Origin: Methanobacteriota archaeon
GTDB taxonomy: Archaea > Halobacteriota > Methanosarcinia > Methanosarcinales > Methanosarcinaceae
DNA: 45,218 nt
Assembly (NCBI GenBank): GCA_016841265.1
Contig: JAENZL010000004.1
Location: forward strand, 4,790-50,007
Reading direction: 5' to 3'
This document shows positions 25,602 through 31,679 of the stretch, one piece after another. The notes under the pieces are model-generated. The model searched no databases. It saw only the letters and a program-made list of their open reading frames with translations, and had not been told where the DNA came from. The position numbers and the translations under genes are program-made. Within the stretch, counting starts at the first letter, position 1; each line of letters opens with the position of its first letter.

Positions 25602-26040
25602 TTTTGCTGCACCCCATTTCCTTCCATCAAACGGTAAATTCACAATAATATAACAAACATATTAAAAAACGCCTGAATTCAAAGTAATTATGCCCTAAAA
25701 ATATTTTATTCTGCTACCAGCCACCTGTCAGCAGCCAGTTTTTGGTGTAGTTTTTTGATGTAGTTATTATTGTAGTTATTATTGAAGTTATTATGATAGT
25801 ATTTATACAAAATTTAAGGGATATTTAGAAGATGTGGGCATAAAGGGCGTTCCCTATAAAAGACTATCTCTACGTAAATTTATAACCATGTACAGTTAAA
25901 GGGCATCACATATAAAAAATTGCACAGTTAGCGAATAATTGAATGAAGAAAGAGGAGAAAGAGAAGAGAAGGAAAAAGGAGAATACTTAGAACAAAAACG
26001 ACGAGAAGACGTACATAAAAAGACAGAAAATAAGGAAAAA
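25602..26040. other. intergenic region between the KaiC-like gene and tRNA-Ser
   Basis: It holds a short repeat based on gtagttattatt (about 25752-25790) and a purine-rich stretch (about 25940-26045). A small open frame across the purine stretch runs into the tRNA gene and is not credible. No other element is apparent. Confidence 0.5.
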
Positions 26041-26125
26041 CGACGAGAGGGGGATTCGAACCCCCGAGATGCGAAGCATCACAGGATTAGCAATCCTGCG
26101 CCATACCGGGCTTGGCTATCTCGTC
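26041..26125 (-). tRNA. trnS: tRNA-Ser (anticodon GCU)
   Basis: Read on the minus strand, GACGAGA pairs with TCTCGTC as a seven-base-pair acceptor stem, followed by G as the discriminator. The anticodon loop carries GCT inside the stem CAGGATTGCTAATCCTG, decoding AGC/AGU. The long variable arm (GATGCTTCGCATC) is the class II feature of serine tRNA, and the T arm GGGGGTTCGAATCCCCC is complete. The CCA end is not encoded. No intron is visible. A TATA-like element lies near 26166-26177. Confidence 0.96.
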
Positions 26126-26292
26126 ATTCAGGTTTTAGAAGACGCGTTTCCCTTAAAGGCATTTCAGATATTTAACCTTTTCCGGGGAAATAACAGTTTA
26201 CAAAAACTGCACATCCACTTCACATTAAGAATTTTACAGACATTTATGTTAGGTTGAAAGGTTTTGAAATTAACCGATTAAAGGTGTTTAGT

Positions 26293-26605
26293 GATAAGCA
26301 CGCCGCAGGTCGATACACCTCGGAGATCCCAGGGGGCTGGCATCTCTTCTCCACCCCGCAACCCCGCAAGCGATGGTTGCCCACAGTAAGTCTGCTCCCT
26401 TCCGGGCCTCGACCGGTTTCCGCGGTAAAGATAGGAAGACCTGTTCTCCAGCAAGCCCTCAAACCAGCAACATCCAAGCAGGACGGGGCTTCTCAGTTGA
26501 GATCCCAGTCTCGAACCTCTTTGATAAACCTTCCATTGGCTTCGTCCCCCGCATATCGGCGATTTCGGGTTACAGGTAACGCCGGGCTACCCGGACTAGC
26601 TCATC
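26293..26605 (-). ncRNA. ffs: signal recognition particle RNA (7S RNA)
   Basis: The minus strand contains the conserved SRP54-binding domain, GGCCCGGAAGGGAGCAGAC (about 26392-26415), with the asymmetric loop and GGAAG tetraloop of helix 8. The 5' end GATGAGC (26605-26599) pairs with the 3' end GCTTATC (26299-26293) to form helix 1, as in archaeal 7S RNA, and the Alu-domain TGTAACCCG motif lies near the 5' end. The predicted length is 313 nt, usual for archaea. This RNA scaffolds SRP19 and SRP54 for co-translational targeting. Ends are inferred from helix 1 pairing and may be off by a few bases. Confidence 0.95.
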
Positions 26606-26624
26606 AACCATACAACACGCTAGT

Positions 26625-27028: not shown

Positions 27029-28648
27029 ATGAGAGTCGGAGTTGCAATAGACCTGGGAACGAGCGGTTATAGAGCTCAGAAAGTAGACCTTGATCAGGAC
27101 GAAATCAAAAGAACAGTAATCACACTGAGGAACCCCCTGCCGGGAGCGAATGTGATGGACCACATGGACTTCGCAATTCACTACGGGCAGGACCTGGCCC
27201 ATGGACTCTCCGTGAATGCGGTAAAGAACCTGCTCCAGGCCCTTGATGTGAAAACAGGGGAACTTGAAAAGATTTCCATTTGCGGAAACCCCATCCAGCT
27301 ATCCATATTCCAGGGGATTACCATTGAAGACCTTGCCTACGCAGGGGAGCGGAAGAAAAAGAAATACCACATCGAAGACCAGAAAAGAGACGCAAGGATA
27401 GTGCCAAGCAGTGAAATCCCGGGGCTTGAGGAATTTAAATGTGAGGTGATGGTGCCCCCGGCAATCAAGCACGAAGTAGGGGCCGATGCCCTTGCCCTGA
27501 TCGTAAAATCCGGGATGCTTGACAAGGATGAAATTTCGATTGCAACGGACTACGGGACGAACGCCGAAATGGCCCTGAAAGTAGGAGATGTTATTTACAC
27601 CGGCTCTGCGGCTGCCGGACCTGCACTGGAAGGGCAGCAGATAAAGCATGGAAACCTTGCATCCCCGTTCACGATCTCCGACATAGAATTCGAAAATGGG
27701 GGACTCCGGAACTATGTTTTGGACGAAGAAATGAAATCAGTCCCCGGAGACCTTGTTGACCCGGCAACAGGAGAAATTCTCGAGGAGGGCCAGATCAAAG
27801 CCAAAGGGATCACGGGTACAGGAGTTATAGCCCTGATCGAAGAAGCGCTGAGTAAAGGCCTTGTCGAGCTTCCGAAAATCAAGACTCCCGAAGGGATCAT
27901 TCACCTCCAGGATAAGATACTTTTCTCGGAGCATGACCTGAAAGAAGCCGGAAAAGCTATCGGGGCAATTCGTGCGGGGCATATAACCCTCTGTGCGACT
28001 GCCGGAATTACAATGGAAGACATCAAGACTGCTTACATGGCAGGAGCCGCAGGAACCTACATGGATGCGGCAAAAGCCCATAAAATAGGACTGATCCCCT
28101 ACGGTACAGGCAAGATCTGCCAGCTCGGGAACACCTCGCTCATCCTGGCAAAGGAAATCCTTGTTTCCGAAGATAGGCTCTGGGAACTGCAGGACATCGC
28201 AAACAAGATCATAGGTACCCACACGATGTTTGCGACTGCCCCGGAATTCAGTAACGCTTACGTCCTCGAACTCGCCTACTGGGAAGAGGGAATGCCCATG
28301 AAAATGTTCAAGAAGTACCTCAAAAAGAAGGGACTTCCCGTCCTGGGCGACCCCCTGGAAAACCCGATAATCGAAAAACGTGTTGAAAGGGACATCCCGG
28401 TACTTGGTGAAGAGGGGCTGCACGTACTCGAAAGGGTGGGAACATACCTCTCAATGCTTGTTGAAGACTGCCCCGAGTGCCAGAAGTGTATAAAAGTCTG
28501 TCCCAATGACGCTATCAGCATTGACGAGAACAACAGGGTCTTGATCAGCACCGACCTCTGTGACGGATCTCACTGCCAGAAATGTATCCGGGCCTGCCCA
28601 GAGGACAAATTCAACTGGGAAAACCTGAAAGTCTTCGAGAATCCTTAA
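27029..28648 (+). CDS. ramA: RamA-type corrinoid protein reductive activase
   Basis: The 539-residue protein matches RamA, the iron-sulfur ATPase that reduces the inactive Co(II) state of methylamine corrinoid proteins to Co(I). It begins MRVGVAIDLGTSGYR, an ASKHA-like phosphate motif, and has a long central domain. Two ferredoxin-like clusters end the protein: CPECQKCIKVC (C-x2-C-x2-C-x3-C) and CDGSHCQKCIRAC (C-x4-C-x2-C-x3-C), both with a fourth Cys followed by Pro, for two [4Fe-4S] centres. Ribosome site and ATG are clear. No methylamine methyltransferase or corrinoid gene adjoins it, so it may be a paralogue serving another methyl-transfer system. Methanosarcina encodes several such activases. 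Confidence 0.85.
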   Translation: MRVGVAIDLGTSGYRAQKVDLDQDEIKRTVITLRNPLPGANVMDHMDFAIHYGQDLAHGLSVNAVKNLLQALDVKTGELEKISICGNPIQLSIFQGITIEDLAYAGERKKKKYHIEDQKRDARIVPSSEIPGLEEFKCEVMVPPAIKHEVGADALALIVKSGMLDKDEISIATDYGTNAEMALKVGDVIYTGSAAAGPALEGQQIKHGNLASPFTISDIEFENGGLRNYVLDEEMKSVPGDLVDPATGEILEEGQIKAKGITGTGVIALIEEALSKGLVELPKIKTPEGIIHLQDKILFSEHDLKEAGKAIGAIRAGHITLCATAGITMEDIKTAYMAGAAGTYMDAAKAHKIGLIPYGTGKICQLGNTSLILAKEILVSEDRLWELQDIANKIIGTHTMFATAPEFSNAYVLELAYWEEGMPMKMFKKYLKKKGLPVLGDPLENPIIEKRVERDIPVLGEEGLHVLERVGTYLSMLVEDCPECQKCIKVCPNDAISIDENNRVLISTDLCDGSHCQKCIRACPEDKFNWENLKVFENP

Positions 28649-28996: not shown

Positions 28997-29036
28997 AGTT
29001 TTGGACGGTAGTGCACATATTCAGCACAAAATATAT
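28997..29036 (+). promoter_or_regulatory. promoter and conserved upstream box of candidate sRNA 1
   Basis: The box agttttggacggtagtgcac (28997-29016) is shared with the second copy at 29771, and a TATA box (aaatatata, 29028-29036) lies about 26-30 bases before the base-paired start of the candidate RNA. Confidence 0.5.
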
Positions 29037-29060
29037 AAACAACTTCATCGTAAGAAATTA

Positions 29061-29170
29061 TTGAGGCATCTAATCCACTTTCACACCGTAAATAATCTAC
29101 CACATTTTGCCCAAACAAACCTTTTAAAGTTACGCAACGCCTTGTTAGGTGCCTCAATATACCCAATTTT
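29061..29170 (+). ncRNA. candidate structured small RNA, copy 1
   Basis: About 110 nucleotides with no coding sense are bounded by the pairing arms TTGAGGCATCTAA (29061-29073) and TTAGGTGCCTCAA (29145-29157), which form a thirteen-pair outer stem with one G-U pair. A T-run follows at 29167-29170 and a second at 29179-29185. A second copy at 29834 keeps the stem but changes its sequence compatibly. The strand is inferred from the TATA box orientation. No known RNA family was recognised. It could also be a mobile palindromic element rather than an expressed RNA. Confidence 0.5.
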
Positions 29171-29199
29171 AAGCAACGTTTTTTTGCAAAGCAATTTAT

Positions 29200-29219
29200 T
29201 ATATACATATATGTATATA
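29200..29219. repeat. 20-bp perfect AT palindrome after sRNA candidate 1
   Basis: The sequence tatatacatatatgtatata is its own reverse complement. It lies 14 bases beyond the T-run of the first candidate RNA. A comparable hairpin follows the second copy. Confidence 0.9.
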
Positions 29220-29770
29220 TTTGGAAAATAAAAATTGAGTGAACCATAGATCCCATTTAAAGCACCACACAAAAATGGCACTCCTGCACGAGAAAAGGCA
29301 TTGAAACCCAGACATATACAAAATAATAACTAACTCAGAAGAGCTAACTAAGTATATTTTTTACGCTGAACCCTTTCGGGCATAAAGCAGGCCATAAGGC
29401 AGACCATAAAACAGGGTACAAAAGACCCCGGGAAAAAACCTGCCCCTTAGCTTGTGAAACAATTTCAATCCTGAAAAATAGATTCAAGCCCTGTAAAATG
29501 TTTTTGGACCCTCATATAAAAGGTAAAAGCAAAGAATTCCCGCAGATTTCAAAGTTCCCCGAAAAAACCCCGATAAAACCCGGAAGAAACTCGAGACAGG
29601 TAACAAAAGGGGAAAGAAAAATAAAAAAATAGAGATAGAGTGGAAACACACCGGATGAATAGTAAAAAATACAGGAAAAACGGCGAAATGTTGACACGGA
29701 AAGAGCATTGATGAGAACAAAAAGCGAATAGTGTGAACATAGGAAGAAGAATAAGAAAAAGAGTGAAAAT

Positions 29771-29811
29771 AGTTTTGGATGGTTGTGCACAGAACGAACA
29801 CAAAATATATA
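29771..29811 (+). promoter_or_regulatory. promoter and conserved upstream box of candidate sRNA 2
   Basis: The box agttttggatggttgtgcac (29771-29790) matches the box of copy 1 with two changes. A TATA box (aaatatata, 29803-29811) sits 27 bases before the outer stem. Confidence 0.5.
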
Positions 29812-29833
29812 TGCAACCTTCACATAGGAATTA

Positions 29834-29943
29834 ATGAGGCATCTAATCCACTTTCACACCGTAATTAATCTACCACATCTAGCCCAAATAGACCTTTTAA
29901 AGTTACGCAACGCCTTTTAAGATGCCTCAATATACCCATTTTT
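29834..29943 (+). ncRNA. candidate structured small RNA, copy 2
   Basis: This diverged copy of the unit at 29061 starts with TGAGGCATCTAA and ends with AGATGCCTCA, still complementary. The internal blocks ccactttcacaccgtaa, taatctaccacat and aagttacgcaacgcctt are almost unchanged between copies. It ends in a run of five T (29939-29943). A ten-base inverted repeat (atttatattt / aaatataaat, 29983-30010) follows. Confidence 0.5.
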
Positions 29944-29982
29944 ATGAAGACCTGATGAGGATAGTGCCCATCACATATAATC

Positions 29983-30010
29983 ATTTATATTTATTTTTGA
30001 AAATATAAAT
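29983..30010. repeat. 10-bp inverted repeat after sRNA candidate 2
   Basis: atttatattt (29983-29992) and aaatataaat (30001-30010) are exact reverse complements around an eight-base loop. It may act as a terminator or processing hairpin, or be chance in AT-rich DNA. Confidence 0.85.
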
Positions 30011-30332
30011 GGCGTAGAGTACACATGCCCAGCATCGGAGGTAGAAAATTGCCGTTGGTGCGTACATAAGTACAGAGAAGCCAGAAAAGATATAGCCGCC
30101 GAAAAGAAAAAGAGAAGAGATAAAAGTAAAGGGCCGCGTAGAAGTTAAAAAGAAGGTAAAGGGGCAAAAAGCTTTTTTTTAGATTGTTTGGAATTGTATA
30201 GAATTGTTCGGAGTTTTTCAGAGTTTTTCAGAGATTTTCAGAGATTTTCAGAGATTTTCAGAGATTTTTGGAATTGTTAGGGATTGTACGGGATTTTTTG
30301 GACTTTGATTGGGGAAAGAAAAGAAAAAAAGA
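30011..30332. other. intergenic stretch before purB, with decamer repeat
   Basis: It holds a 10-bp tandem repeat of gagattttca (30211-30270, about six copies with early variants gagtttttca) and no gene. T-rich sequence beyond the purB stop could terminate purB. Confidence 0.6.
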
Positions 30333-31679
30333 TTAGAGGTCGTAAGCCTCCCGCAGTTTCACGGAAAGGGATTCGACCTGTTCCACAGCAGTTCCGATGT
30401 ATTTGTCAGGGTTTACAAGGTTTTCGATGTCCCCGACACTCAGGTATCTTGAGACTTCTGGAGTTTCCAGAAGCACGTTTTTGAAGTGCTGCCCGGTTTC
30501 GTGGGCTTTCATTGCAGAGGCCCGGACGAGTTCATGGGCTTCCTGGCGACCTACCCCACGTTTTGCAAGTTCTATCATAACAGCTTCCCCCATGTTCAGG
30601 CCCCGGAGAAGTTCAAGGTTCCGACGGATGTTTTCAGGATAGAAGCGCAAATGTTCGATCACGCTGATTCCGAGTTTTATAATATGGTCCGTTAGCACGC
30701 ATGCTTCGGGGAAGACTATCCTTTCACAGGAAGAGTTTGTCAGGTCCCTTTCATCCCAGAGAGTGTTGTTCAGGAGTTCGGGTTCGACCATGGACCGTAC
30801 GATCCTTGAAAGCCCGCAGATCTGTTCGGACTTGATGGGGTTTCGCTTATGCGGCATGGTGGAAGAACCCACCTGCTTTTTCCCAAAACTTTCTTCTACT
30901 TCCGCAATCTCACTGCGCTGGAGAGACCTGATTTCAACGCCGATTTTATCAAGGGTCGTAACCGTGTTTGCCATCCACATCACAAACTCGGCATGTCGGT
31001 CTCTCTGGATAACCTGGTTAGAAACGTCGACCGAACCGATCCCGAGGTGCTGCATGGAAAGTTTCTGGACCATAACCCCCGCAGGCCCAAACGCAGCCTG
31101 GGTCCCGACAGCCCCGGTCATCTGCCCGACAGTAGCTCTCGGAGTCAGTTGAGCCAGGCGCTCCAGATGCCTTGCGACTTCGGAGGCCCATATAGCAAAA
31201 CGGAGCCCGTATGTTGTAGGGACCCCAATCTGGCCGTGAGTCCTCCCGCAGCAAACCATATGCTTGTGAGCTTCCGCTTTATCGAGGAGGACCTTGAGTA
31301 AGATTTTCAGTTTATCATCCAGGAGGTCAATCGCATCTTTTATCTGGAGTGCCGTCGCTGTGTCCAGAATATCATTTGAGGTAGCCCCGAAATGCACCCA
31401 CTTTCCTGCATTGTCCCTGCACTGTTCGGAAATTGCAATGACCACAGCCATCATATCATGGTGGATCTCAGCCTCTATCTCGTTTACTCGCTCAGCCTCC
31501 ACCAGACCAATGCTCTCCGAAATTATCTCAGCAGCCTCGGCAGGGATTAAACCCATGTCTGCCTCGGCCCGGGCAAGGGCAACTTCGGTCTGTAAGATCC
31601 GGGAAAGCCGGTTATCCTGACTCCATACATACTTCATTTCTGCAGTACCGTAACGGTATTCTATCGGATGAATCGCCAC
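30333..31679 (-). CDS. purB: adenylosuccinate lyase
   Basis: The product (about 448 residues) is adenylosuccinate lyase of the fumarase/aspartase superfamily, which cleaves SAICAR to AICAR and adenylosuccinate to AMP in purine synthesis. The superfamily signature GSSTMPHKRNPIKSE contains the flexible catalytic Ser loop; GRTHGQIGVPTTYG carries the catalytic His. I prefer the GTG start at 31679 (MAIHPIEYRYG), as ggtgatt lies five bases before it and the family usually starts this way. An ATG at 31691 would add four residues. It stands alone and is divergent from the L40e gene. Confidence 0.95.
   Translation of the reverse strand: MAIHPIEYRYGTAEMKYVWSQDNRLSRILQTEVALARAEADMGLIPAEAAEIISESIGLVEAERVNEIEAEIHHDMMAVVIAISEQCRDNAGKWVHFGATSNDILDTATALQIKDAIDLLDDKLKILLKVLLDKAEAHKHMVCCGRTHGQIGVPTTYGLRFAIWASEVARHLERLAQLTPRATVGQMTGAVGTQAAFGPAGVMVQKLSMQHLGIGSVDVSNQVIQRDRHAEFVMWMANTVTTLDKIGVEIRSLQRSEIAEVEESFGKKQVGSSTMPHKRNPIKSEQICGLSRIVRSMVEPELLNNTLWDERDLTNSSCERIVFPEACVLTDHIIKLGISVIEHLRFYPENIRRNLELLRGLNMGEAVMIELAKRGVGRQEAHELVRASAMKAHETGQHFKNVLLETPEVSRYLSVGDIENLVNPDKYIGTAVEQVESLSVKLREAYDL

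Follow-up and report, generated by a model that had tools for sequence, protein, structure and literature searches.

The window, by which we mean the whole 45,218-nt stretch of DNA analysed here, contains a gene-free gap of ∼1.7 kb between the end of a gene for a RACo/RamA-like protein (ramA) at 28648 and the end of purB at 30333. Two copies of a repeated unit, copy a and copy b, lie in this gap, with purB convergent to copy b. Repeat analysis aligns 119 nt of the two copies at 91% identity (29053–29171 and 29826–29944), together with an upstream stretch of 65 nt at 74% identity (28997–29061 and 29771–29835). Searched with copy a, the window's own genome yields these two places and no others, with E values of 1e-111 for copy a itself and 1e-51 for copy b, which excludes chance as an explanation for the pair. 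The initial annotation, which described two diverged promoter-plus-RNA units in a gene-free region of about 1.7 kb, is thus borne out. The gap also holds ∼14 head-to-tail 10-nt units of the TTTTCAGAGA and TTTTTGGAAT types, located in the stretch that separates copy b from the 3' end of purB (30177–30316).

Table 1. Features of the two repeat copies, in window coordinates.
Feature	Position	Strand	Description
Copy a upstream element	28998–29031	+	GTTTTGGACGG and inverted half-sites TAGTG-N11-CACAA (consensus TTGTG-N11-CACAA); abuts the TATA box
Copy a TATA box	29031–29039	+	ATATATAAA, seen in the sequence; relatives keep TTATATAAATAAC
Copy a RNA body	29057–29162	+	Closing stem 29059–29073 / 29145–29159, with a G-poor loop inside
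AT palindrome 3' of copy a	29200–29219		TATATACATATATGTATATA; kept as ATATAAA-NN-TTTATAT in most relatives
Copy b upstream element	29772–29803	+	GTTTTGGATGG and TTGTG-N11-CACAA; precedes copy b in the window's genus only
Copy b TATA box	29805–29812	+	ATATATAT, seen in the sequence
Copy b RNA body	29830–29935	+	Closing stem 29832–29844 / 29920–29932
AT-rich inverted repeat 3' of copy b	29973–30011		Hairpin 29982–30011

Both copies share the same layout, much as first described. The TATA boxes start ∼27–28 nt before the first stem arms, and the arms are complementary (93% in copy a, the exception being a U-G pair where copy b has U-A). An AT palindrome or hairpin follows each copy, and is kept in most relatives. 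The terminal T-run that had been claimed is present in the window's genus (29179–29185 and 29939–29943 in the window) but not in the tails of Methanosarcina copies, which carry an AT inverted repeat 40–60 nt past the stem. In downstream sequences such as those of L049 and L050 the arms of ATATAAA-NN-TTTATAT are kept while its centre varies. The palindrome after copy a is probably a terminator hairpin or a protein site. The AT inverted repeat in general could be either of these or a pair of outward-facing TATA boxes, in which case transcription from one of the boxes would run antisense to the RNA tail.

Similarity searches identify the element in 16 of the 186 genomes of the order Methanosarcinales, comprising all four genomes of the window's genus, ten of the 31 from Methanosarcina and two from a third genus. 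Carriers in the first two genera always have two copies, on one strand and 400–900 bp apart; in the third, which is represented by draft genomes, G081 has one copy and G082 has two on separate contigs. The covariance search that the initial annotation had proposed, with a model built from 30 copies, re-found the known loci and the second G082 copy, near the start of its contig, and gave nothing convincing beyond them; G078 and position 2.17 Mb of G148 gave low-scoring matches that appear fortuitous. A phylum-wide sample of 393 genomes yielded no additional genus with the RNA, and no viral contig contained the core pattern exactly. As a possible third copy, a 33-nt match at G000:C21:53806 (found in G003 too) was considered and rejected, as it sits in unrelated sequence.

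Several carriers are named as Methanosarcina (KYL-1, DH2, 2.H.T.1A.6 and UBA10923) or as Methanosarcinaceae. We take carrier G148 to be M. acetivorans C2A, its two CdhC genes being at the positions expected for that genome. The family is probably conserved in M. mazei too, and the 248 RNA-seq candidates of that species may well include the pair. No Rfam 15 family matches at its gathering threshold (the best relaxed match has E = 1.5 and 16.5 bits, where the threshold is 80). A search of the literature, one that did not extend to the sRNA list for M. mazei from 2009 or to the sRNA154 and sRNA41 papers, found no description of the locus.

Alignment of the Methanosarcina intergenic regions resolves distinct conserved islands, each copy having one that spans upstream DNA, TATA box and body and a smaller one at its AT repeat. 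The 400–900 bp spacers have drifted and are not conserved. This pattern bears on whether the repeat is a mobile DNA element (MITE) or dispersed repeat, as two copies with inverted-repeat ends ∼100 bp apart might suggest. Each genome has two copies at one orthologous site, no others occur in the 186 Methanosarcinales genomes, the 393 phylum-wide genomes or the viral contigs, and the body, the promoter and the spacer each form an island that evolves separately. Since the covariance model matches these loci only, and given the copy number and site conservation, we reject this explanation and regard its chance of being correct as negligible.

The upstream regions of the two copies differ more than their bodies. 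Copy a is preceded in all three genera by GTTTTGGRYGG-TTGTG-N11-CACAA, placed before the TATA box and weakened in G173, whereas copy b in Methanosarcina and G082 retains the CACAA half alone, the full element being missing. Among the matches listed in RNA-bearing genomes, exact copies of the upstream box TTTTGGRYGGTTGTG occur only at the RNA loci. A regulon search with this box, allowing two mismatches, gave counts similar to those of the reversed control. The block CACCCAATTTGGATGAAACTTTTGAT, directly after the stem, is kept in copies b alone in Methanosarcina (for example in the tail of G157b), which may give the mature RNA b a 3' domain of its own. In G170 each copy has the other as its nearest relative by body sequence, ahead of the counterparts in all other genomes, and in G168 a private variant is common to both. 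These small distances and the private variant suggest that the bodies are kept similar by gene conversion, with the promoters remaining different.

Folding distinguishes the two strands. On the + strand, copies a and b fold better than their dinucleotide shuffles (z = −4.4 and −4.6, with none of 200 shuffles as good), whereas on the − strand z is only −0.5 and −2.2. The predicted closing stem comprises 10–12 base pairs around a loop of ∼70 nt, and is paired in 96.8% of cells across the alignment. Eight cells are G-U and only two are A-C; the latter would be G-U on the opposite strand. At one stem position U-A gives way to U-G in copy a of the window's genus and to C-G in copy b of G082. In the covariation test suggested initially, the overall signal is not above that of shuffled alignments because the stem hardly varies. 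Support for the stem consequently comes more from conservation and folding than from covariation.

The loop has an unusual composition, with 8.4% G and 30% C, whereas the intergenic DNA around it has 20.5% G and 15.7% C. It contains a series of conserved blocks, UCCACUUUCACACC, AUCUACCAC, CUACCACAU, GCCCAAA and CGCAACGCC, that are mostly unpaired as judged by ensemble mean unpaired probability. Of the two internal blocks that had been described as conserved, aagttacgcaacgcctt and tccactttcacacc, both are so, but aagttacgcaacgcctt less than tccactttcacacc; the former is mostly missing in the second copy of the third genus. A mini-hairpin displaying GCCCAAA is partly supported, with 79% of its cells paired and two pairs changed on both sides, the signal again being not above shuffles. 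An internal CGUAA/UUACG stem in the predicted fold was rejected, as it is not kept in most Methanosarcina copies a.

Whether the RNA encodes a peptide was addressed through a potential leaderless ORF of 20–30 codons (M/L-RHLIHFHTVNHLPHLAQIDF) that begins at the foot of the stem, where an ATG or TTG occupies the same place in 27 of 31 sequences and opens a frame of ∼21 codons in many of them. A precedent for such a small mRNA or dual-function RNA is the leaderless 20-residue ORF described on sRNA154 (PMC11456600). Indels of a single base nevertheless disrupt the frame in G157b, in G156 and in the third genus, copy b of G154 has no start, the stops are not conserved, and the synonymous fraction of codon variants is 0.21, compared with 0.22 expected without selection. 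The combination of conserved start, frame and stop with a synonymous excess that a small mRNA should display is thus not seen in these sequences, and we consider a coding role improbable. Still less probable is a cis-regulatory leader or riboswitch of a downstream gene. The element is structured and promoter-proximal, as such leaders are, but no conserved + strand ORF follows either copy, copy a being followed by copy b and copy b by the convergent purB, and the 400–900 bp spacers are not conserved.

Each copy therefore combines its own promoter with a conserved non-coding body that has no coding signal, as an sRNA gene should. The conserved islands in three genera, the + strand fold, the lack of a coding signal and the restriction of matches to these loci together support a pair of RNA genes on the + strand. 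To this extent the initial proposal of a new pair of promoter-driven, structured small RNAs is supported; its suggestion of a link with ramA and methylamine metabolism is not.

The order ramA, copy a, copy b, convergent purB is found in 13 genomes. In three others (G173, G081 and G082) the RNA has no adjacent ramA and lies beside tRNA-Ser and SRP RNA genes. Conversely, 14 genomes that group together in a single clade (M. barkeri/M. thermophila-type), well supported in the purB tree, all lack the RNA while their ramA–purB arrangement is intact, and in seven of them only 85–235 bp separate the two genes. As RNA and ramA come and go independently, the methylamine argument falls; pairing of the RNA with the ramA start region was also not seen. 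The purB tree requires two changes, one for the RNA-less clade and one for G172. With the RNA present at the same site in the outgroup genera, loss is the more economical interpretation. In two genomes without the RNA, IS66-like sequences adjoin purB, a transposase in the gap of G178 (L195, 8511–10340) and a transposase fragment in G172 (L188, after 1734), which suggests that the site tolerates insertions. In the window, genes for SRP RNA (26292–26606) and tRNA-Ser(GCT) (26040–26126) lie on the − strand between 26040 and 26606, upstream of ramA. The same two genes lie close to the small-RNA locus in each of the eight related genomes checked, and they seem to represent its ancestral neighbourhood.

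Neighbouring, near-identical sRNA genes that each have their own promoter are known in bacteria, the tandem PrrF1 and PrrF2 genes of Pseudomonas being an example. They resemble the present pair in these respects, although the upstream elements of copies a and b are unlike in most species, and to our knowledge there is no sequence relation between the two systems.

Within Methanosarcina, a close parallel is the M. mazei pair sRNA162 and sRNA171, homologous, constitutively transcribed intergenic RNAs of 191 nt with three stem-loops that act in trans, and also in cis, on mRNAs (PMC3510493). They come from the same archaeal family as the present RNAs and likewise combine structured with single-stranded domains. 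Their genes, however, lie between MM2441 and MM2442 and between MM2448 and MM2449, beside an ArsR-family regulator gene, and homologues are reported in M. barkeri (PMC3510493), whereas the present RNA is flanked by ramA and purB and missing in the M. barkeri-type clade; neither MM2441/MM2442-type flanks nor presence in M. barkeri was found for it. M. mazei sRNA154 is an intergenic sRNA of ∼130 nt whose loops bind mRNAs, one loop masking a ribosome-binding site (PMC3177094, PMC11549558), and is encoded by a single gene between MM3337 and MM3338 with the NrpR operator GGTA-N6-TACC (PMC3177094). The likeness is that of an intergenic archaeal sRNA with loops; inspection of the aligned promoters of the present RNA found no GGTA-N6-TACC. 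Flanks, operator and distribution thus set the present RNA apart from both systems. The intergenic sRNA41 of M. mazei masks several ribosome-binding sites and targets the ACDS operons, according to a citing paper (PMC5867862). The C-rich loops seen here would suit that mode, but the present RNA shows no preference for ACDS start regions and is probably distinct from sRNA41. Pairing sRNAs that mask or stabilise mRNAs accordingly have precedent in the genus (PMC3510493, PMC5867862).

With moderate confidence we propose that the locus encodes paralogous trans-acting sRNAs, expressed from two promoters, that pair with mRNAs through their C-rich loops. A trans-acting antisense mode is judged most likely because the genus uses such sRNAs, the loop is open and poor in G, and neither copy precedes a gene that a leader could control. 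For transcription, start and end points, antisense mode, targets and signals we infer the following scheme. Both copies would be transcribed from the + strand, each from its own TATA promoter, with starts at the stem foot (∼29057–29062 for copy a and ∼29830–29835 for copy b). The transcripts would end either just past the stem or where the AT inverted repeat lies, at a length of ∼105–170 nt. The 5' and 3' ends of the body would pair to close, and presumably protect, a G-poor, C-rich and mostly unpaired ring of ∼70 nt. On the model of sRNA162, sRNA154 and sRNA41, the blocks UCCACUUUCACACC, AUCUACCAC, GCCCAAA (in the mini-hairpin) and CGCAACGCC would then act in trans by pairing with purine-rich stretches of mRNAs, which are probably ribosome-binding sites. 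With the same body behind different upstream elements, the two genes could feed two signals into one regulon.

The main rival to an antisense mode is that the structured pair acts chiefly through protein binding, as a sponge, scaffold or RNP component, which we regard as a real possibility though an unlikely one. There is room for it because the loop is near-invariant over most of its ∼70 nt, more than antisense seeds usually need. A conserved mRNA complement was, moreover, not found: the complements of loop 1 and loop 3 occur at chance level, with the exact matches examined lying inside coding frames, the start regions of purB and ACDS show no preferential pairing with the RNA, and ramA gave none. 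The ACDS operons were accordingly rejected as targets of the sRNA41 type. The ancestral SRP RNA and tRNA-Ser neighbourhood is also in keeping with a protein-binding role, but may be accidental. Against such a role, the loops are mainly unstructured and C-rich, as antisense seed regions usually are, inspection by eye recognised no kink-turn, C/D or H/ACA boxes, and there is no Rfam similarity.

A bolder form of our preferred reading, that of trans-acting sRNAs, would make this RNA the founder of a class of archaeal riboregulators. Its distinguishing features would be a stem-closed ring with a long, near-invariant, G-poor loop of several blocks, a tandem pair with alike bodies, and one promoter with a dedicated operator found nowhere else in the genome. 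A single RNA hub would thus receive two signals, and a whole Methanosarcina clade would have discarded it. We consider this doubtful. The family nonetheless adds one that is absent from Rfam 15, in a domain in which few small RNAs have known targets. With tractable hosts, a natural duplicate and a clean absence in the sister clade, its role should be testable by double deletion or by transfer.
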